DNA of 64,000 nt from Bacteroidaceae bacterium. GTDB lineage: Bacteria; Bacteroidota; Bacteroidia; Bacteroidales; Bacteroidaceae. Below, piece after piece: positions 6,311-57,638 of the stretch. The notes under the pieces were generated by a model, which was not told the origin of the DNA, did not search any database, and saw only the letters and a program-made list of their open reading frames with translations. Both the position numbers and the translations under genes were made by a program. The stretch lies in assembly GCA_017507385.1 (NCBI GenBank), contig JAFWAX010000052.1, forward strand, positions 1 through 64,000, read 5' to 3'. Numbering within the stretch: the first letter of the stretch is position 1; each line of letters starts with the position of its first letter.

Positions 6311-7141
6311 TTAATTTTTGGCAAAAAAAGTTACTTTTTTGAAAACTTTTAATGTATTTTTTGTTGTTTGAAACGCAATGTTGTCAATATCGCAGCCATA
6401 AATGGCAGCCAGGGTTTCGGCTACATGCTTGACGTATGAACTTTCGTTTCGTTTCCCTCTGTTGGGCACGGGTGCCATGTAGGGAGCGTCGGTTTCAAGG
6501 ACAATTCTTGATAGCGGAATGGCATTTTTCACCACGTCTCTTAAGGTGGATTTCTTGAATGTCAATACTCCTCCAATCCCCAGCATGAAGTTAGGGAATG
6601 AGAGCAAATCGAGGGCTTCCTCTTCTGTTCCCGTGAAGCAATGGAAGACACCGTAAAGGTTTTTATGGCGATGGCGTTCCATGATTTCCATCATTTCTGT
6701 ATGGGCATTTCTTGTGTGAATGACTATTGGAAGGTCGTATTTCTCTGCCCACTCGATTTGTCTTTCAAAAACCTCGATTTGCTCATTCTTGTAGGTGGTG
6801 TCCCAATAAAGGTCAAGCCCCACTTCCCCTACAGCAACAATGGGTGTGTGGTTTTCAGAGGAGATGCTCTTCTCGTTTTCTATGTTAGAAAGGATGATTT
6901 GCTCCATCTGATCAAGAACCAGATTGTAATCTTCATCCATGATGTTTTCCGGGTGAAGTCCAACCATTGGGTGCAGATATCCTGCATGAGCTTGGCACAC
7001 TTGAAGCAGGTGAGGGGTGTCTTTGAGACAGGTTCCCGGGACGAGTATCTTTTCTATTCCTGCATTTTGGGCTCTTTGGATGACTTCTTCAAGGTCTTCA
7101 GCAAATTCGGGTCCGTCAATATGTGAATGTGTGTCAATCAT
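6311..7141 (-). CDS. tatD: TatD-family metal-dependent deoxyribonuclease
   Basis: 276 residues. Amidohydrolase-type metal ligands are visible in order: MIDTHSHID at the start, the Glu in VAVGEVGLD, PIVIHTRNA, GVFHCFTG, and LETDAPYMAP. TatD proteins are 3'-5' exonucleases acting on DNA or RNA. The gene starts 16 bases after the stop of the polyprenyl synthetase and is probably cotranscribed with it. Confidence 0.93.
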   Translation of the reverse strand: MIDTHSHIDGPEFAEDLEEVIQRAQNAGIEKILVPGTCLKDTPHLLQVCQAHAGYLHPMVGLHPENIMDEDYNLVLDQMEQIILSNIENEKSISSENHTPIVAVGEVGLDLYWDTTYKNEQIEVFERQIEWAEKYDLPIVIHTRNAHTEMMEIMERHRHKNLYGVFHCFTGTEEEALDLLSFPNFMLGIGGVLTFKKSTLRDVVKNAIPLSRIVLETDAPYMAPVPNRGKRNESSYVKHVAETLAAIYGCDIDNIAFQTTKNTLKVFKKVTFFAKN

Positions 7142-9085: not shown

Positions 9086-9246
9086 ACACTTTTTTTTGAT
9101 TTGTGAACTACAAATGCCGTTTTTTTTATCAAAAAAGTCTGTTTTTTTTCTTTGTGCGCTACTTCTTATCCTATTTTGTTCCAGATGGCATGCTGATATG
9201 TTGTTGCTTCTATTGCCAGCTCTTTGATGTGCTGTTTAGCCTAATT

Positions 9247-9320
9247 GCGATGAAGGGTGTGTCGTAATTAGGGTAGAGGGTGCTGCGTAATTATGGTGGA
9301 GGGTGCTGCGATGATGTGGC
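9247..9320. repeat. Three imperfect direct repeats of about 24 bp
   Basis: In the 8983-9330 gap, three consecutive units share GGGTG, a TCG or TGCG block and TAATTA or ATGATG endings. Two contain GAGGGTGCTGCG exactly (starting near 9276 and 9299); the third (near 9254) reads GAAGGGTGTGTCG. The rest of the gap is T-rich and holds no gene I can support. Confidence 0.5.
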
Positions 9321-9330
9321 AGTAAATGTG

Positions 9331-47434: not shown

Positions 47435-48466
47435 ATGAGAGAAAATACTCGAGATTTGCTCGCAAAGTTAGATGCAGACGTGTGCCGTCTGCTGCAGTTG
47501 CTGTCTTCTGGTCTGTACGGCAGAGACAGCATGGAGTCGGAAACAGTGATGGGCACTGCAGCTGCAGGCTGGAAGGATTGCAGCTTTTTCTTTTTCATGG
47601 AGACGTGTATCGAAAGCCTGAATGCGCAGGGAAGGCATCGCACCGCCGAGGCCTATGCATCAGCACTTAACAGCTTTGTCCGATTCCGTGAGGGGAAGGA
47701 TATAGCGTTTTCTGACATGGACTCCTCCCTGCTGCAGGACTATGAGGCGTATCTGCACCGTGGCGGCGTGAAGCCTAACTCCTCATCGTTCTATATGCGC
47801 ATACTCCGTGCCGTGTACAACAAGGGCGCAGCAAAGGGGCTCGCTCCTCGCAATCATCCCTTTGGACAGGTCTACACCGGAGTGGCGAAGACGGCAAAGC
47901 GGGCTATCCCGGTGTCTGCAATCCGCCAAATCAAAGAGATGGATCTGTCGGGCAATGCCGCATCCGATTATGCGCGCGACATGTTCCTCTTCTCTTTATA
48001 CACGCGCGGCATGTCCTTCGTCGATATGGCACATCTGCTGAAAACCGATTTGCATCGGGGCATCCTGACCTACAGTCGGAAGAAAACGGGGCGGCAACTG
48101 CACATCAGGTGGGAGCAGTGCATGCAGGACATCATTGACAAGTACGACAATCCGCAGTCGCCTTATTTGCTGCCCATCGTCGACTGGCGTTCCGGAACGG
48201 ACGTGCGCAGGCAGTACATCTATGCAGCCCACAGCATCAACCGGTGCTTGAAGAAAATTGGTGAAGCTCTTCATCTGCCTATCCCGCTAACCATGTATGT
48301 CAGCCGCCATACATGGGCAAGCGCAGCCCGAAGCCGCAATGTGCCCTTGTCGGTCATCAGCGAAGGCATGGGCCATGATTCCGAAGCTACCACGCGCATA
48401 TACCTGGCGTCGTTGGACACGGCTGCGATTGACGATGCAAACAGCCTCATATTGGAGTTATTGTAG
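47435..48466 (+). CDS. Tyrosine-type site-specific recombinase (Bacteroidetes integrase family)
   Basis: 343 residues. An N-terminal SAM-like core-binding domain (about 50-150) precedes the catalytic domain. Candidate active-site residues: Arg191 in YTRGMSF, Lys216 or Lys217 in SRKKTGR, Arg291 in MYVSRHTWAS, His314 in EGMGHDSEATTR and the nucleophile Tyr323 in RIYLASLD. Tyr288 stands where many integrases have His, as is common in Bacteroidetes members that flip promoters. No att-type tRNA, prophage or conjugative genes are nearby. Its stop is 115 bases from an 18-bp inverted repeat bounding the leader of the giant surface protein, so it is the likely inverting enzyme (inference). Confidence 0.9.
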   Translation: MRENTRDLLAKLDADVCRLLQLLSSGLYGRDSMESETVMGTAAAGWKDCSFFFFMETCIESLNAQGRHRTAEAYASALNSFVRFREGKDIAFSDMDSSLLQDYEAYLHRGGVKPNSSSFYMRILRAVYNKGAAKGLAPRNHPFGQVYTGVAKTAKRAIPVSAIRQIKEMDLSGNAASDYARDMFLFSLYTRGMSFVDMAHLLKTDLHRGILTYSRKKTGRQLHIRWEQCMQDIIDKYDNPQSPYLLPIVDWRSGTDVRRQYIYAAHSINRCLKKIGEALHLPIPLTMYVSRHTWASAARSRNVPLSVISEGMGHDSEATTRIYLASLDTAAIDDANSLILELL

Positions 48467-48581
48467 AGTCGGAAATGCTTGAAGGTGTTGCGCTTTGTAG
48501 CCATGCAACGTTCCTTTATGAATAATTATAGCAGATTGATAGTCAAAAACTTATTTGATATTGTTTTTAACTCGTGAGGAA

Positions 48582-48872
48582 ATCTCTTCGCAAGAGAGGT
48601 GTAGCAATATTTCTCATTAAATGATACAAATTTCCTCCCAATGCTATTTTACCTCCAAAAGCCCTTCAATTGGCAATAAAAAAATTGCAATCTTTGCAAT
48701 GTGGATGTTGCAAAATCTATTCAACAAGAAAAAAAAATAAAACAAATTAAATGTTTTTAAGAAAAAAGGATGGAACGTTAACTAAAGTTGACCGAATCGG
48801 TCGTAATTTTGTAACAAAATTTTAACTATTTAATTCTTTTGCGAAGAGATTTGTCCTCTCTTGCGAAGAGAT
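48582..48872. repeat. Candidate invertible segment bounded by perfect 18-bp inverted repeats
   Basis: Left repeat 48582-48599 reads ATCTCTTCGCAAGAGAGG; right repeat 48855-48872 is its exact reverse complement. Each repeat contains a small dyad (TCTCTT-CGC-AAGAGA), and a partial third copy lies at 48839-48850. The 255 bases between are A/T-rich, hold the only TAnnTTTG box in the leader (48804-48811) and a dyad GACCG-AAT-CGGTC (48790-48802). No gene is coded inside. Position between a tyrosine recombinase and a surface-protein gene suggests DNA inversion. Confidence 0.7.
48804..48811 (+). promoter_or_regulatory. -7 box inside the candidate invertible segment
   Basis: TAATTTTG points toward the surface-protein gene, 132 bases before its ATG. 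A TTG lies at 48788-48790, but the spacing (13) is short. If the segment flips, this box would face the recombinase instead. Confidence 0.45.
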
Positions 48873-48942
48873 GTAGATGTATATGTATTTTATTAACTAT
48901 TACTATTATTTTTATTATTTTATTAACTTAATTTTTCAATCA

Positions 48943-51900
48943 ATGAGACTAAAGCAGTTTTTATTGACCTTAGTGGCGATGCTAAGTTTCGTTATTTCAG
49001 GTTTTGCGCAAACTACGGTTAGTAGTGAAGCTGACTTGAAATCGATTCTTACATCAGCTACAGGAGGCAATGTTGTCTTAGGAGGCAACATTGAAACAAC
49101 TTCGGAAATCTCGATTCCGAAGGGAGCCGCAGTGACATTAGATCTTAATGGTCATTCGATTACCGGTACTCATACTGGTATTTTGATTAAAGTTAATGGC
49201 TCTTTGGTTATTAACGACTCCCAAGGTACAGGTGTGATAACAGGTAAATCTTACGTGTTGCACAGTGCGGGAGGTAGTAGTATTACCCTTAATGCAGGTA
49301 AGATTTACCGTGCATCTAGCTGGGCAGTTTATACTACTGGTGTATTTACTGTCAATGGTGGTTCTGTTGAGACTCCAGATGGTAGTGCGGCTATTCGTGT
49401 AGCAGGTAGTGGTTCTGTCAACCTCGAAGGCGGTACTGTTACATCTGTACAGGTTACTTCAGGTGCACTGAATATTACAGATTCAGATGCGACTGTTACA
49501 AATGGAGTTACTATTGAAGATGGTGCCAAGGAGGTTAATATTTCATCTGGTACTATCAAAGGTGAGGTGAATGTTGAAACAGGTGCAGAAGAAAAGATTA
49601 CAATCTCTGGTGGTGCATTCTCTGACGACGTCAGTGATTACTTAGATGGTAATAAGGCTGTCATTAAGAATGAGGATGGTAGCTATGAGGTTGTTGCTGG
49701 TTTGATAAAGATTGCTGATAAGTATTATGGAACTGTTAAAGATGCTCTTGATGCCGTAGGAAACGGACAGACAATAGAAATTCTTGAGGCTGCTGCTGGT
49801 GATGAGAGTAAAACTGAGATAGACTTCACTAAGCATATCAACTTCACTATCACAGGTAAAGCACCAAACCATGCTCTTCCTGTTATCACATTCCAGAATG
49901 CGACAGTGAACATCAAGGATGCTCACATCCTGATTCCAGAGCTTGATGCTCGCCAGAACGCAACTATCAACGTTATCAATTCTAAAGTTGACGATGCTGG
50001 TGGTAATTCTATCGCTAAGTCATACTACAACGGTACGATTAACATCGACGAGACATCTACAGTATACATGATGCAGGTAACCACAATGGGTTATATCAAC
50101 GTTAAAGGTACATTGAACGCTACATGGCAGACAAACGTGTATGGCAACGGTATGATTACTGTGACTGATGATGCTACATTCAACACTGCTGCTCTCCACA
50201 TCACAGGTAAGGATTACAGTGGTCGTGACAACACAGATGCTGGCCGTGTAGGCAAGCCTGCTCTTGTTGTAGTTGATAAAGCAAACTTCAACGTAGGTAA
50301 GGTGTTGTCAAACAATGGTGCTGACTACAGCTACAACTCATCTAAGGGTATCAACATTGGTACTATCGAAGGCAAGAAAGGTGTTCTTGATATTAAGAAT
50401 GGTGCTAAGGTTAACATCTACATGGCTAACGGCGAGACAGCCAATATCGGTGCTGATGGTACTGTAAATGTTAACGCTTCTACATTCAACGTTGCATGCC
50501 GTGCAGCTGGTGGTACTGCAACACTTGCCAATGCTGGTACCGTATATACAACAGGCGAAGCAAACCTCGCTGTTGCTGTTACAGGTGCCGGTTGGTTCTA
50601 CATGAATGGTGTTACACTTGATGCTGATACTAAGCTCGATGGTGCTAAGGTTGCTTTCATCAATGGTACTAACGACATCGTTGGCTCAACAATCGAAAAT
50701 GGATTCTTTAATGTAGGTGTTGGTAAGAATAATGATGCTGTTACTGTCGCTACTTTTGCAAAAACTAATAGCATTACACTTGGTGATGTTACTGTAAATG
50801 TTTCTGAAGCAACTATCGGTGCCGAAGGTGCAGCTTATGCAGGCTGGGTAGGTAGTGCATACAGCGCAGATAAGACACAAAAGAAATATGCATTGAACAT
50901 AAAAAATTCATTGGCAACATTCGGTTACTTGCACATCTCTAAGGATGGTGCTTTGAACGTTAATGGTCACAGCACTAATAAGTACACCAATGACAATGCG
51001 AATGTTGACTTCTACGCTGGTGAATTTATCATCAACGGTACAGCCACATTCGATGGAACAGACGCTTGGGCTAAGTACACTAAGATGTCTGTTGACCATG
51101 CTGACGCTGTATTGAACATCAGCAATGGCACTGATTATGAGGCAAGCATCCACAATGGTTCTACTACTGGTACTGCTCTCAAGTTCTGGAAGGCAGGTAA
51201 GGTCAAAGTTGACAATACTTCTGTTGTTGAAATCGACAATCAAACAGTGCTTGTTGAGGGTGCAGAATTGAACATCGCAGGTGCTGTAACTGCTAAAGGT
51301 ACTGTTTCTGGAGCCGGCTCAATCACGTTGGGAGCCGAAACTGCTAAACTTACTACAGCAACTACAGGTTTGTCAGTTAACACTTCGCTTGAGGAAAGGA
51401 TTGTGAAGTATGTTGATGGCGCTTACCAGGTTACTACTATAACTGCAACTGTTGGCGGAGTAAGCTACGAAACTCTCCAGGAGGCTATCAATGCTGCAAC
51501 TAATGGTGCAGTGATTACTCTTACTGCCGACTGTGCTGAGAACGTAACCGTTACTCAGGCTGAAGGTGTGAAGTTCACAATCGATGGTGCAAATCACACT
51601 ATGACTGGTGCTATCACTGTGGATGGTAAGAGCGCAGTTTATGCAACTGCTGGCATTACTATCAAGAACGTGAAGTTCTATGCTTCGGCTATCACAACAG
51701 ATGCTTGCATCAACCTTGGTGTAAGTGGCAACAGCAATACTCGCTACACAAGCAATGTTACTGTTGACAGCTGTACTTTCACCGGTGGTAACAAAGAGAA
51801 GGTAGCTGTTAAGTCATACACAGGTGGTGACAAGAACTTGACTATTACCAACTGTACTGTTGACAGTACTATGCATAGCCTCCTGCAGGCTTCTGGTATC

Positions 51901-54900
51901 GATGGTGTTACTATAGATAAGTGTACTGTAAACTCTAAGAATGGTATCAACCTCAATTCTTCTGAGAACGTAACAATTAGCAACTCTGAAATTGCGGTTA
52001 GTGGTTATGCTGTTCGAGCTGGTGCTGGTTCTGAAGGTGGAAGTGGTAAGATTGAACTTACTAACAACACTTTGAAGACAGATAACACTGAAGGTGACGC
52101 CGTTGTTGTAATCCGTGGCAATGCTTCTGAGCAGATTGATTTGACTATGACACAGAACGTAGTTTCTGGTACTACTCACATCAGCGGTACAACTGCATCT
52201 ACAAGCATCTCTGCTGATGCCAACTACTGGGATGGTAAGGACGCTCCTGTAGTGTCTGATGGTGCGACTGCTGTTACTGTCAACTCATACTACAGCGATG
52301 TTGATCGTAGTACCCTCGTACGCAATCCGAAGGGTTCTATCTATGCTTATACATGGGCAAATAAGATTACTGGCGACGTTACGACCAATGCTGCATATAG
52401 CATCAAGATTGAGGTTCTCGGCGCTGATAATACAGTGATTGGTACTGTTGAGTGTGAGAAGTCAGAATACATGATTGGTACTTCCAATACTCTCACATGG
52501 CGTATCAACTTCGGTGATGACGACAGCGACTCTTGGAAGATGACATGGAACGAAGGTGCTCCTTCTGTCAACAACATGCCTACAAGCGTTAAGCTCTATG
52601 TTGACGGTGTTGAAAAGGCAACATCTAATATCAAGTTGATGCAGAATGGTGACGGCCAGAACTCTGTTCTTGGTGCTGTTAGCAATGCCGAAGGCATCAT
52701 CAAGAGCATGATTGTTTGCGAAGGATACAATTATACTAATGCCGACGCAGCATTGAAAGCTGCTGTTGCAGCTGCTGAGACTGGTGATGAGATTACCATT
52801 ATCAAGGCTGGCACTTACAAACTTCCTGGGTTTGCTGGTAAGAATTTGACAATCACAGGTAATGTTGACGGTGTAGTATTCGATAATATCGGTGCTTTCA
52901 ATATGGGAGGTGTCAGTGTTACATTCAACAAAGTAACATTCGACTACTATCCAAACGCCAACTACACTGGTCTCCAGCATGCCAATACAATGGTTTACAA
53001 CAACTGTATTTTCAACGGTCAGGTATTCCTCTATGGTGTGAGCGAGACATTCAACAACTGTACTTTCAATCAGGAAAGCTCTGATGCTTACAACGTATGG
53101 ACATACGGTGCTAAGGCTGTTGCATTCAATGGCTGTACATTCGAATCTGCCGGTAAGTCTGTATTGATTTATAGCGAGCAGACCGACTTGGTTAACAACG
53201 TTACTGTAACTAATTCTACATTCAACGCTTCTAAAACTGTTGAAGGTAAGGCAGCTATCGAAATGGATGCAAGCCTTACAGCTGGTATCAACTTGACTAT
53301 CGATACAAATACAACTGCTACAGGTTTCGCTGACGGTAGCGTTTCTGGCAACAGCCTCTGGAACAACAAGAAGGGTAATGCTGATGCTGCTAACAACGAC
53401 ATCACTGTAGTTGTAGGTGGTGAGAAAGTATTGTGTCCAGTTTATGAGGCTAAGATTGGTGAGGTTAAGTACAGAACTATCGAAGAGGCTTTCGCAGCTG
53501 CTGTAGAAGGTGAAACAATCACTTTGGTAGACGATGTAACTCCTGAGCTTACAAGCCAGCGTGCTATCACCAAGGCTGCTGTTATTGACTTGAATGGCAA
53601 GACTATGACCTTGACAGAGGATGACCTCTACTGGGGTACTACTACATTCAAGAACGGTAACATCGTGGTTGACCCATCTGTGGTAGCAAGCACAGCAGTA
53701 TTCTGGATGTTCGAGAATCAGACATTGACACTCGATTCAGTGAAGCTCACAGCTACAGGCGTGACAGGTACATATCTCATTGGTATCAATGGTGGAACAG
53801 GTTCTGCTGTTAAATTGATCAATGGTTCTGAGATTGTTATTGGCAATGAGACTCAGGCTGATTTAAGTGCTGTAATCGCTGACAATGGTACGGGCAACAG
53901 CGTTGAGATAGAAGGATCTACCATCAATGTAAAGAACATCAAAGGCCGCTTCTATCTTGGTGGTACTAACGGTGATGTTGTTGTTGATAACACAACAGCT
54001 ACTTTGAACGGTGTTAAGGAAGGTTTCTATCTCTGCGCAGGTCAGTCACTGGCTATTAATGGAACTTCTAACGTTTCAGTAACGCTCAATGACACAAACG
54101 GTCGTTATGGTATCAACCTGACCGATATCACTGCTAACTATACAAAGGCAGAAACTGCAACAGTAGATGCAACTCTCTTCGAGAAATGTGATGCTAAGAT
54201 TGGCAGTGACAAGTATGCTACTCTCGTTGATGCCATCGCAGCTGCTCAGGAAGGTCAGACTATTGTACTCAATAGAGACGTTACAATGGACTATGGTGCT
54301 CGTGAAGCATTTGCTAATAACGGTGCTACTGTTACTATCGATGGTAATGGTCATACTCTGACTCTGAACCAGACTAATAGTGACTGGTCTTCATTCGGAT
54401 TGGCAAACAACACGACGGTGATATTCAACAACATGACTATCGAAAAGACCGGCTACGGAGACACAAACGGTGCTTGGAACAAACACGCAATCATCTTCAG
54501 CACTCCTGTTGAGATGAATAACGTGACTGTTAACAACTCTATGGCTGTTCAGGCTGGTGCTACACTCAAGAATGTAACTATCAACGAGGCTAATGGTTAC
54601 TATGGTTTGTGGATTAACGGTAACGGTCAGACTGTAACTGTGGAAGGTGGTTCTATCACTGCTACTAACGGCGGTCGCGGTATCAAGATTGCAGATCAGT
54701 ACATCGATGCTCCTGCACAGGTTAACTTGACTGTTAATGGTATGACATTCAGCACAGCTAAGAAGGCTGCGGTTCTCGTTACTTCTACTGCAGGTGCTAA
54801 GATTACTGCAAGCAACGTAAACATCGAGAATGTTGCTGAAGACAAAACTAACTTTGTGTGGGTTGACGAGGATCGCGCTGCAAACTACGCAGCAGTAGAA

Positions 54901-57378
54901 GTAACTGGTGCTGATGTTGCACAGGAAGCTGTAGAATCATTCCCAATCGTTGTTAAGAACGGTGAAAAGATTCAAAGTTACTTCAAGAATTTGCAAGCTG
55001 CATTTGATGCTGTTCAGGAGGGTGAGACTATCGTGCTGGTGAATGACATCACAGCTACTGAGACTGTTGTAGCAAACGCAACAGCTACTCTCGACCTCAA
55101 TGGATTCACTGTTTCAATGGAGGATGCTTCAAGTGCAACAGCTGCTTTGATCAAGAACAATGGTAACCTTACTATTGTTGACGGCAGTGAGGCTAAGGCA
55201 GGTAAACTCTACTTCAAATCTATTACACCGAGTGCAACCAATGCTTATGCAAGCAATGTTATCAGCAACTACGGCACAATCACTATCAATGGCGGTACTA
55301 TCGAAAACGCTACTGTTGGTGGCGCATGCTATGCGCTCGACAACTACGCTGGTAGCACAGCTACTATCGAAGGTGGTAAGCTCATTGCTGCCAATACAGC
55401 TGTTCGTATCTACAACTGGACAGACGGTGAGGCAGCAAAAGCTACACTCAACATCACTGGTGGTGAAATCGTTAGCGAGGATGGCTATGGTGTCAATGTG
55501 AACTCAGGCAACACTCCGTACGTAGCTCTTAACATCAGCGGTGGTACAATCACTACCAACGATACTGACTACAACCTTGCTGTCTATGTTATCAACAAGG
55601 GCAATGCCGCTAACTTCACTGCTAATGTAACTGGCGGTACTCTCAACGGCAACTTCGCTCTCAACGGTGTTACATCAACAACAATGGCTGAAGATGCAGT
55701 ATCTGTATCAGACGGTACATTAGAAGGTGTGATTTGCAACGCTGATCCTGCTTATGGATTCGTCTCTGGCGGTACATTCTCTTCTGCTGTAAACGAGGCT
55801 TACTGTGCTGCAGGCTACATCCCAACAGTTAATGTCGATGGCACATACGGAGTTAAGTCAGGTGTTTACGTAGCTCGCATTGACGGTGTTGGTTACGAAT
55901 CACTCCAGGAGGCTTACGATGCAGTGGCTGACGGTGGCACAATCACTCTCGACACTGATGCTACTGGTGCGGGCCTTGTTGTCAAGAAGAACGTGACTAT
56001 CGACTTCAACGGCAAGACTTACACTGTAAACGATGCTGTTGGTTCAACAGGTACTGCTACACTCGCATTCCAGGTTCTCGCTGGTGCTAATGCTACTCCT
56101 TACAACGTGACATTCAAGAACGGTAAAATCGCCGTTACTAACGACGTAGTTGCAGGAAGCAAGAAGCTTAAGGTAGTTGTTATGAACTACAGCAACCTCA
56201 CTCTCGATGGCATGACTATCGACGGTACAGGTAGCGATGAAATGATTTACGGTGTAGTTGCTAACAACGGTGAGCTCACACTCGCTGGTGAAACGACTAT
56301 CACTGTTGCTGAAGGCGACTGTGCTCTCGATATCGACGGTTCACAGAAATACTACGGTGTTGTAACTGCTAACATCGGTGAAGGCGTAGAAATAAATGGT
56401 GATGTAGATATCTACGGTGAAGAAGCATCTGTAGAAATCACCGGCGGTACGTTCAAGGGAGACTTCAGCATTAAGCCAGAAGCTTATGTGCTGATTACCG
56501 GCGGCGCATTCTACGACAATGACGACGAGGACGTGCTTCTCCACTTGGCTTATGGCTATCAGCTGACGGGCAGTGCTGCTCCATACGCTGTAGAGAACAC
56601 AGGAACTACTGACTTGGTGAAAATCGAGGATAATGGCAACTGCACAGAATTCTACGTGGATAAAAAGTATGAAGTGGTTGAGCTCGTTTACACTCGCACC
56701 CTGAAGGCTACCAACACCTGGTATCCATTGTATGTCCCATTCCAGATTCCAGTAACAGATGAGTTGCTGCAGGACTATGATGTGACATACATCAACGACG
56801 TTCACTCTTACGATGAAGACAACAACGGCGAGATTGACAAGATGCAGATGGAGGTGTTGAATATTGCTGCAGGCAATACGCTCAAGGCTAATTATCCATA
56901 TCTCTTCCGTGCCAAGAATGAGGATGCGAAGAATATGGAGCTTGTGCTTGAGAATACGACGCTGTATCCAACCGAGGAGAACTCAATTGAATGTTCTTCT
57001 GTGTTCATGAAGTTTAAGGTGACCGGTATCTATGAAGAAAAAACCTTTGGCGAGCTTGGAAAGCTTGATGAGGTGATGGGTATGTCTGGCGGTAGCTGGA
57101 AGTATGCTACCGATGAAAGCGTAACGCTTCCTGCATTCCGCCTCTACCTCACAGTTACATCTCTGGATGGCTCTCCAGTTGCGGTTGACCCAGCCGCGTT
57201 GGCTAAAATCCGTATCTGTCTCCGCGGCGAGGAAGGCGATGCCACCGGCATCATCTCTCCAGCAACCATGGAGTCAGCAGCCGGCGCTGCTATCTACGAC
57301 CTCATGGGCCGTCAGGTTGTAGCTCCTGAAAAGGGACGCATCTACATCATGAACGGAAAGAAAGTGATATTTAAATAA
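48943..57378 (+). CDS. Giant repetitive beta-helix surface protein, T9SS-type cargo
   Basis: 2811 residues from ATG 48943 (MRLKQFLLTLVAMLSFVISG), chosen because it gives a clean signal peptide; an ATG 22 codons earlier adds a Tyr/Phe run. The body is rich in Gly, Thr, Asn and Val, with parallel beta-helix patterns. About eight modules begin with a Y-x-T-L-x-E-A-like line followed by G-x-T-I-x-L and a D-x-N-G-x-T element, near genome positions 49020, 49705, 51454, 52717, 53455, 54199, 54967 and 55879. The C-terminus (from about 57240) ends YDLMGRQVVAPEKGRIYIM plus a basic tail, like a T9SS type A sorting signal. A cell-surface adhesin or glycan-binding role is inferred. Confidence 0.85.
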   Translation: MRLKQFLLTLVAMLSFVISGFAQTTVSSEADLKSILTSATGGNVVLGGNIETTSEISIPKGAAVTLDLNGHSITGTHTGILIKVNGSLVINDSQGTGVITGKSYVLHSAGGSSITLNAGKIYRASSWAVYTTGVFTVNGGSVETPDGSAAIRVAGSGSVNLEGGTVTSVQVTSGALNITDSDATVTNGVTIEDGAKEVNISSGTIKGEVNVETGAEEKITISGGAFSDDVSDYLDGNKAVIKNEDGSYEVVAGLIKIADKYYGTVKDALDAVGNGQTIEILEAAAGDESKTEIDFTKHINFTITGKAPNHALPVITFQNATVNIKDAHILIPELDARQNATINVINSKVDDAGGNSIAKSYYNGTINIDETSTVYMMQVTTMGYINVKGTLNATWQTNVYGNGMITVTDDATFNTAALHITGKDYSGRDNTDAGRVGKPALVVVDKANFNVGKVLSNNGADYSYNSSKGINIGTIEGKKGVLDIKNGAKVNIYMANGETANIGADGTVNVNASTFNVACRAAGGTATLANAGTVYTTGEANLAVAVTGAGWFYMNGVTLDADTKLDGAKVAFINGTNDIVGSTIENGFFNVGVGKNNDAVTVATFAKTNSITLGDVTVNVSEATIGAEGAAYAGWVGSAYSADKTQKKYALNIKNSLATFGYLHISKDGALNVNGHSTNKYTNDNANVDFYAGEFIINGTATFDGTDAWAKYTKMSVDHADAVLNISNGTDYEASIHNGSTTGTALKFWKAGKVKVDNTSVVEIDNQTVLVEGAELNIAGAVTAKGTVSGAGSITLGAETAKLTTATTGLSVNTSLEERIVKYVDGAYQVTTITATVGGVSYETLQEAINAATNGAVITLTADCAENVTVTQAEGVKFTIDGANHTMTGAITVDGKSAVYATAGITIKNVKFYASAITTDACINLGVSGNSNTRYTSNVTVDSCTFTGGNKEKVAVKSYTGGDKNLTITNCTVDSTMHSLLQASGIDGVTIDKCTVNSKNGINLNSSENVTISNSEIAVSGYAVRAGAGSEGGSGKIELTNNTLKTDNTEGDAVVVIRGNASEQIDLTMTQNVVSGTTHISGTTASTSISADANYWDGKDAPVVSDGATAVTVNSYYSDVDRSTLVRNPKGSIYAYTWANKITGDVTTNAAYSIKIEVLGADNTVIGTVECEKSEYMIGTSNTLTWRINFGDDDSDSWKMTWNEGAPSVNNMPTSVKLYVDGVEKATSNIKLMQNGDGQNSVLGAVSNAEGIIKSMIVCEGYNYTNADAALKAAVAAAETGDEITIIKAGTYKLPGFAGKNLTITGNVDGVVFDNIGAFNMGGVSVTFNKVTFDYYPNANYTGLQHANTMVYNNCIFNGQVFLYGVSETFNNCTFNQESSDAYNVWTYGAKAVAFNGCTFESAGKSVLIYSEQTDLVNNVTVTNSTFNASKTVEGKAAIEMDASLTAGINLTIDTNTTATGFADGSVSGNSLWNNKKGNADAANNDITVVVGGEKVLCPVYEAKIGEVKYRTIEEAFAAAVEGETITLVDDVTPELTSQRAITKAAVIDLNGKTMTLTEDDLYWGTTTFKNGNIVVDPSVVASTAVFWMFENQTLTLDSVKLTATGVTGTYLIGINGGTGSAVKLINGSEIVIGNETQADLSAVIADNGTGNSVEIEGSTINVKNIKGRFYLGGTNGDVVVDNTTATLNGVKEGFYLCAGQSLAINGTSNVSVTLNDTNGRYGINLTDITANYTKAETATVDATLFEKCDAKIGSDKYATLVDAIAAAQEGQTIVLNRDVTMDYGAREAFANNGATVTIDGNGHTLTLNQTNSDWSSFGLANNTTVIFNNMTIEKTGYGDTNGAWNKHAIIFSTPVEMNNVTVNNSMAVQAGATLKNVTINEANGYYGLWINGNGQTVTVEGGSITATNGGRGIKIADQYIDAPAQVNLTVNGMTFSTAKKAAVLVTSTAGAKITASNVNIENVAEDKTNFVWVDEDRAANYAAVEVTGADVAQEAVESFPIVVKNGEKIQSYFKNLQAAFDAVQEGETIVLVNDITATETVVANATATLDLNGFTVSMEDASSATAALIKNNGNLTIVDGSEAKAGKLYFKSITPSATNAYASNVISNYGTITINGGTIENATVGGACYALDNYAGSTATIEGGKLIAANTAVRIYNWTDGEAAKATLNITGGEIVSEDGYGVNVNSGNTPYVALNISGGTITTNDTDYNLAVYVINKGNAANFTANVTGGTLNGNFALNGVTSTTMAEDAVSVSDGTLEGVICNADPAYGFVSGGTFSSAVNEAYCAAGYIPTVNVDGTYGVKSGVYVARIDGVGYESLQEAYDAVADGGTITLDTDATGAGLVVKKNVTIDFNGKTYTVNDAVGSTGTATLAFQVLAGANATPYNVTFKNGKIAVTNDVVAGSKKLKVVVMNYSNLTLDGMTIDGTGSDEMIYGVVANNGELTLAGETTITVAEGDCALDIDGSQKYYGVVTANIGEGVEINGDVDIYGEEASVEITGGTFKGDFSIKPEAYVLITGGAFYDNDDEDVLLHLAYGYQLTGSAAPYAVENTGTTDLVKIEDNGNCTEFYVDKKYEVVELVYTRTLKATNTWYPLYVPFQIPVTDELLQDYDVTYINDVHSYDEDNNGEIDKMQMEVLNIAAGNTLKANYPYLFRAKNEDAKNMELVLENTTLYPTEENSIECSSVFMKFKVTGIYEEKTFGELGKLDEVMGMSGGSWKYATDESVTLPAFRLYLTVTSLDGSPVAVDPAALAKIRICLRGEEGDATGIISPATMESAAGAAIYDLMGRQVVAPEKGRIYIMNGKKVIFK

Positions 57379-57390
57379 AAAAAAGAGACT

Positions 57391-57422
57391 CGCCTCCTCC
57401 CTCGGCTGCGATGGAGGAGGCG
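57391..57422. other. 10-bp stem-loop between the surface protein and the small peptide gene
   Basis: CGCCTCCTCC (57391-57400) pairs perfectly with GGAGGAGGCG (57413-57422). It follows the adhesin stop after an A-run, so it reads as a terminator with a T-run only on the minus strand. It could limit read-through into the peptide gene or stabilise the mRNA end. Confidence 0.5.
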
Positions 57423-57470
57423 AAAGCCTCGAAAGATAAAGAATCAGAAATTTTTATAAAATCAAAGAGT

Positions 57471-57638
57471 ATGAAAGAAAAGTATGTAAAGCCAGAATTA
57501 CATGTGGAAAAGATTGAATTGGATCTGTGTTTATTAGGCGGAAGTAAGGTAGACATAGGGGATGGTACAAGTAATAACTTTAACGAAGCAGACATCCGTG
57601 AAATATTTGAGGATACAGACAATGGAAGTTTGTGGTAA
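57471..57638 (+). CDS. Small peptide with Bacteroidales PE-LLGGS-type leader
   Basis: 55 residues from ATG 57471 (MKEKYVKPELHVEKIELD), preferred over an ATG 20 codons upstream that lies in the hairpin. The pattern K-Y-x-x-P-E-L...LDLCLLGGS followed by a polar, Asp/Asn/Gly-rich tail is shared by many small Bacteroidales proteins of unknown role. The Gly-Gly after a hydrophobic stretch looks like the cleavage site of double-glycine leader peptides. It has no signal peptide. It sits 92 bases after the adhesin stop and is closed by a strong terminator. Confidence 0.7.
   Translation: MKEKYVKPELHVEKIELDLCLLGGSKVDIGDGTSNNFNEADIREIFEDTDNGSLW

Follow-up and report, generated by a model that had tools for sequence, protein, structure and literature searches.

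The 64-kb stretch of DNA analyzed here (the window), which opens contig JAFWAX010000052.1 of a Bacteroidaceae bacterium, contains a tyrosine recombinase gene followed by inverted repeats and by a gene for a 2811-residue protein. Our comparative analysis indicates that this locus is likely to be a self-contained phase-variation cassette of the Bacteroidota tyrosine recombinase (Tsr) type, the window copy of which would flip as loci of its relatives have done. It would represent a further case of a known kind of promoter inverton, having an atypical promoter and an unusual target, and probably phase-varies a giant beta-helical surface-type protein. The main elements are as follows.

47435..48466, plus strand: tyrosine recombinase, presumed invertase, 343 amino acids, recognized by Pfam domains and invariant residues
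48582..48599, plus strand: left inverted repeat, core TCTCTT-CGC-AAGAGA at 48583-48597
48600..48854, no strand: presumed invertible segment, 255 bp, 72% A+T, inversion seen in relatives only
48804..48811, plus strand: TAATTTTG box, Bacteroides-type -7, directed towards the giant gene, atypical for the family
48835..48849, minus strand: inner, third copy of the site, in tandem with the right one and differing at one position
48855..48872, minus strand: right inverted repeat, core at 48857-48871
48943..57378, plus strand: giant surface-type protein, 2811 amino acids, with a signal-peptide-like N-terminus (by eye), a beta-helical N-terminal part and a genus-shared C-terminal domain

The two 18-bp arms were 100% complementary, with 255 nt between them, and were located just downstream of the recombinase gene; the A+T content was 72% in the segment versus 55% in the window. 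An earlier reading made from the letters alone (the sequence-only reading) had reported this perfect pair and the A/T-rich DNA between its arms, and both repeats were confirmed. It had overlooked the third copy at 48835-48849, as well as the palindromy of each arm, TCTCTT-CGC-AAGAGA around a 3-nt centre, a core common to all three copies. The inner copy and the right arm were in direct orientation, 22 bp from start to start. Core-like sites with up to two mismatches numbered three in the window versus 0.19 expected, and three were reached in 0 of 100 shuffles. The exact site was not found outside the window switch in the 84 contigs of the own genome (78% complete), and at two mismatches four other places matched versus five for a control pattern. 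The earlier suggestion of a recombinase self-contained with its target agrees with this sole occurrence of the site. In the left site, the outer half (AAATCTCTT) matched the inner right copy and the remaining half (AAGAGAGG) the outer right copy; exchange at the centre would leave such mosaic halves, though few bases discriminate.

The reading frame of the recombinase is intact. Its product matched the Pfam families Phage_int_SAM_5 (7.8e-20) and Phage_integrase (2.5e-6), in line with the tyrosine recombinase previously assigned to this open reading frame (ORF), while the recombinase-type models of NCBIfam gave four XerA/XerC/XerD-type matches only, each below its own cut-off. Residues R191, K217, R291, H314, and Y323, which we take to be the catalytic ones, were invariant in an alignment of 16 sequences including the window recombinase. 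A second full-length relative was not found in the 78%-complete own genome at E 0.001, the one partial match covering 76 residues at 30%. Relatives at E 1e-30 or better were encoded in 137 of 301 genomes of the family, and the highest identity to the window recombinase among the matches listed was 64% (L049). In a tree of 80 recombinases (LG+C20, PMSF; one locus with an internal stop was left out), the sister of the window recombinase was L042 with a support of 98/83.

Same-core palindrome pairs recurred beside the recombinase in the first 30 loci scanned; minus-strand loci were left unturned in that scan, so pairs on their left are downstream. Counts were obtained from two partly overlapping sets (e.g., L048 and L206). 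One consisted of the best 80 of 587 relatives from a profile scan of genome contigs; its profile was built mainly from repeat-bearing loci, and the set may therefore lean to switch-bearing relatives. The other, of 93 loci, was hand-picked from genomes with at least two matches among those listed. Sites with at most one mismatch were counted within 1 kb downstream of the recombinase, at loci with at least 450 bp downstream. Among the 64 countable loci of the 80-locus set, at least two sites were present in 51, one in 3, and none in 10, and upstream of the recombinase a site was found in 0 of the 63 loci with enough sequence. Composition-shuffled regions never contained two sites (0 of 1280). 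The pair was also found in 40 of 81 loci of the 93-locus set, which had no upstream pair (0/93). Overall, 102 of 174 loci had the pair, collapsing to 79 non-redundant segments.

The central triplets of the first and last sites matched inversely in 48 of the 51 loci; the 3 exceptions hold a further site or a second switch. There were 26 kinds of triplet in 59 loci, window included. The triplet was rejected as a within-genome barcode of each switch: the same triplet occurred in 3 of 20 within-genome pairs (all G118) versus 44 of 883 between-genome pairs, with no avoidance. Locus L267 has exact TCTCTT-NNN-AAGAGA sites at 6331, 8028, 10633, and 12381, four within 6 kb and each with its own triplet; none has an inverted partner at up to two mismatches, and the contig stops 2 bp past the last of them. 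A single site in L010 (G002), which by eye falls at the beginning of a lipoprotein-like gene, was not used. Our literature search for the repeat arm AAGAGA found nothing.

The place of the pairs bears on a different explanation, namely that the recombinase serves a mobile element as its integrase, with repeats that are either the ends of this element or chance matches. Near-identical switches in records of different genera (L084, L088, L090, L094, L096, L097, and L102) are a hint of horizontal spread and would suit it. However, the pairs were 3' of the recombinase with 0 on its 5' side in the sets tested, the repeats bound a short A/T-rich segment without a gene, and inversion was evident in the recombinase family (see below). 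We regard the integrase explanation as scarcely credible and retain that of a promoter switch.

Inversion was assessed by comparing the flanks, the recombinase and the inner segment in six pairs of related loci. Loci L158 and L161 (genomes G318 and G278) shared 95.6% identity over 366 bp of the left flank, 98.2% over 600 bp of the right flank and 95.6% in the recombinase, and their inner segments aligned at 95% only when one of them was reversed (score 144 versus 7.5 unreversed). Similarly, L177 and L180 (G234 and G127) had 91.9% identity over 37 bp on the left, 93.3% over 600 bp on the right and 93.6% in the recombinase, with inner segments matching at 94.1% only when reversed (score 148 versus 17); their sites deviate from the core at two arm positions. 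The recombinases of these two pairs were 51-54% identical to that of the window. Two further pairs (L159/L162 and L160/L184) had the same orientation, and in the other two (L143/L145 and L213/L224) divergence was too great to tell. Thus, conserved flanks around a segment that aligns only when reversed, found in two pairs, indicate that the family of the window recombinase inverts DNA.

Of 80 loci, 16 had a contig end less than 500 bp downstream of the recombinase and 1 had one less than 500 bp upstream (binomial p 0.0003); within 2 kb, there were 20 downstream and 9 upstream (p 0.06). Such an excess is expected from mixed orientations in an assembly, though other repeats could contribute. In genome G219, the end of contig C2 and the start of contig C7 (L250 and L249) have the same end base and share a switch segment together with its flank; the two versions are 98.5% identical and lie in opposite relative orientations. 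This case was not counted as inversion, since a second copy or a strain mix would look the same.

Box TAATTTTG was the sole exact TAnnTTTG box on both strands of 48467-48942, in agreement with the sequence-only reading, which had named it as the only one in the leader of the giant gene. As the window holds 51 such boxes on its two strands, one box in a leader means little by itself. A further element was found next to it.

48790..48802, no strand: palindrome GACCGA-A-TCGGTC, adjoining the box on its upstream side, with no other copy in the own genome

This palindrome was rejected as a regulon operator because its uniqueness in the own genome implies no regulon.

The switches of the relatives had a regular promoter geometry, for which boxes no further than 25 bp from the core were taken and one representative was used per group. 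In the 79 segments, boxes were directed towards the recombinase in 57 (OFF) and outward in 12 (ON, including the window), while 2 groups had both directions and 8 were unclear. Of the 71 segments with a clear direction, 70 have a TAnnTTTG box whose end is 12-17 bp inward from the core (at 14 bp in 41 segments and at 13-15 bp in 64). Conservation in the relatives also extended upstream of the box.

Several observations weigh against an active switch in the window. Its box is 23 bp from the nearest core, the single outlier among the 71 segments. Its profile score of -2.6 compares with a leave-one-out median of 21.4 and a 10th percentile of 13.3 for 72 promoters, of which it ranked 1 in the leave-one-out profile; background boxes (n=343) had a median of -6.6, and 35% of them scored as well. 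The window box is therefore indistinguishable from background boxes, leaving the promoter of the window copy unproven, and the promoter role previously given to it could not be upheld as stated. The branch of the window recombinase was long (0.81). The downstream pair was absent in 13 of 64 loci of the 80-locus set and in 41 of 81 loci of the 93-locus set, and near-copy groups of 7 (L084-like) and 4 (L106-like) loci each had a single orientation. A homologue of the giant protein in L247 had no site in 5 kb upstream. Finally, a search for the second orientation of the window locus in 44 other genomes of the genus detected the switch DNA in none, with one 39-base match. The opposite orientation anticipated in related genomes was found, with conserved flanks, at L158/L161 and L177/L180, but the genus provided no second copy of the window locus itself.

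Part of these data would suit a decayed or locked switch, descended from an active inverton, in which the promoter was lost or moved and the giant gene is transcribed from a regulated or unrecognized promoter. The atypical promoter, the mismatch in the inner site and the long recombinase branch agree with such a history. Nevertheless, the left and outer right sites are identical over 18 bp, and the recombinase has kept both its frame and its invariant residues. We consider decay unlikely and favor a working switch. For the ON/OFF phase variation proposed earlier, the mechanism class is backed by the relatives through the recombinase family, the motif and place of the sites and the occurrence of both orientations; the promoter is not, and inversion was seen in relatives only.

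Based on these data, the recombinase would bring the left site together with one or the other right site; strand exchange in or close to the central TT-CGC-AA would then invert the promoter segment of about 255 bp before the giant gene. As assembled, the single promoter-like box is directed towards the giant gene, which would be ON; after a flip it would be directed towards the recombinase, and the giant gene would be OFF. Pairing with the inner or the outer right site would produce up to four arrangements, two ON and two OFF, and the two ON forms would leave one or two sites between promoter and gene, which may grade expression. We infer this tandem pairing scheme from the arrangement of the sites. 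By box direction, all four tandem arrangements were present among the window and its relatives: ON with the tandem on the promoter side in the window, L070, and L167; ON with the tandem on the left in L048, L095, and L116; OFF with the tandem on the left in L055, L056, and L065; and OFF with the tandem on the right in L192 only. Exact tandem sites were rare, being found in 5 of 349 family genomes, a count that does not include the window because its inner copy has a mismatch. Three tandem-site switches of G127 contain runs of 10 N between the tandem sites, which are scaffold gaps or masking.

Sites between a promoter and its gene might also act as operators or as hairpins of the 5' untranslated region, regulating the giant gene without inversion, a role compatible with switching. 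Every site is palindromic and TCTCTT-N3-AAGAGA could pair with itself, and two sites are located between the box and the giant gene. In Bacteroides fragilis, repeats between promoter and genes accompany lower transcription, their number being inversely correlated with it (PMC4747536). On the other hand, the RNA predicted for 48815-48960 was no more stable than shuffled sequences (z 0.43), and inversion took place across such sites in relatives. Regulation without inversion thus appears very unlikely to explain the locus, and promoter inversion remains our preferred explanation.

The giant ORF (48943-57378, 2811 residues) was present where the sequence-only reading had placed it. No Pfam or NCBIfam family matched the protein at E 0.001. 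Its C-terminus was conserved in other proteins of the genus, although a scan for sorting domains of the type IX secretion system (T9SS) gave no NCBIfam match at E 0.001; the host genome matched the SprA translocon model with 2689 bits. A structure model of the C-terminal 492 residues was discarded (mean pLDDT 37). Another homologue of the giant protein is encoded in L248, where the upstream side is outside the visible sequence. Downstream of the giant gene, one short ORF was found.

57471..57638, plus strand: ORF of a 55-amino acid peptide, resembling one downstream of a giant gene in the sister locus L042

Judging from its position only, this peptide would be co-expressed with the giant protein, and both would be outputs of the switch.

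Targets of related switches were surveyed in the first downstream ORF of 40 switch-bearing loci of the 80-locus set, leaving out the near-copies L088, L090, L094, L096, L097, L102, and L112-L114 and loci without a usable ORF. Among the 39 families matched (25 listed), DUF3575 was found in 12 ORFs, ResIII in 6, NusG in 5, and the TonB receptor plug in 2; surface-linked proteins, NusG-type regulators and genes for restriction or helicase functions are thus among the switch targets. Downstream of the switch in L071, L079, L080, L106, L112-L115, and L117, long ORFs (about 1085-1680 amino acids) were observed. Given the helicase and restriction families, some of these switches may place defence systems under phase variation.

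The sister locus L042 has no site beside its recombinase. Its paired sites, one of them with a tandem copy, were found 7 kb further (15944, 15966, and 16425), between two divergent giant genes. Giant 1 (2133 amino acids) shared 34% identity with the window giant (E 4e-55) along 514 C-terminal positions. Giant 2 is an open frame of 298 codons up to the contig end. The one TAnnTTTG box beside these sites, TACCTTTG, is directed towards giant 2. The leaders of both giants are perfect inverted repeats for 120 bp, which could mislead an assembler. A 59-amino acid ORF after giant 1 (9142-9321, minus strand) resembled the 55-amino acid ORF of the window in 10 of 25 residues, the common start being MK-Y--PE--V-KI. 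Positions 1-8086 of L265 correspond to L042:9394-16903, with a tandem-site switch, one strong promoter and divergent giants. L059 is also close to the window in the tree; in its genome, the recombinase contig carries no switch.

Inversion at the sister locus would swap one giant coat protein for another, an apparent either/or selector, and we consider this arrangement the most interesting open lead. It is conceivable, though rather doubtful, that these loci form an inverton clade devoted to giant T9SS-type proteins of beta-helical build, where a switch can serve as such a selector and the window is a one-sided form. With the tandem site, the switch would then determine the choice of giant as well as its amount, and cells would alternate giant coat proteins. 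Searches combining type IX secretion and phase variation, or invertible promoters and divergent genes, did not reveal this arrangement in the titles and abstract beginnings of the matches listed. The window itself would add a beta-helical surface-type protein of 2811 residues to the targets of promoter inversion, and the relatives provide a signature readable from sequence: a tyrosine recombinase, then TCTCTT-N3-AAGAGA pairs with matched triplets and a box mostly 13-15 bp inside.

Tyrosine site-specific recombinases reportedly invert regions affecting outer surface proteins of B. fragilis (Weinacht 2004, by its title), and by title alone that system resembles the window in enzyme kind and target class.

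In the PhaseFinderDC study of hCom2 Bacteroidota, tyrosine-type invertase genes are likewise described beside invertons with Bacteroides promoters and surface targets (PMC11892184). Those invertons were called from reads in both orientations, whereas that of the window is deduced from its relatives; the likeness concerns enzyme type, promoter and targets. The B. fragilis recombinase Tsr19 (BF2766), deletion of which abolishes inversion, controls exopolysaccharide genes and a distant second promoter (PMC4747536), whereas the target in the window would be a giant protein and the 78%-complete genome has no second exact site. The two systems are likened by arrangement, not by sequence: as the Tsr19 gene directly precedes the invertible promoter that it flips in IVp-I, the large-capsule switch of B. 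fragilis (PMC4747536), the recombinase gene of the window directly precedes a presumed invertible promoter. The repeats of that switch are also duplicated, at one end in strain NCTC 9343 or at both in YCH46 (PMC4747536, PMC3090145), with an effect on inversion described as unknown (PMC3090145); those of the window are duplicated at one end.

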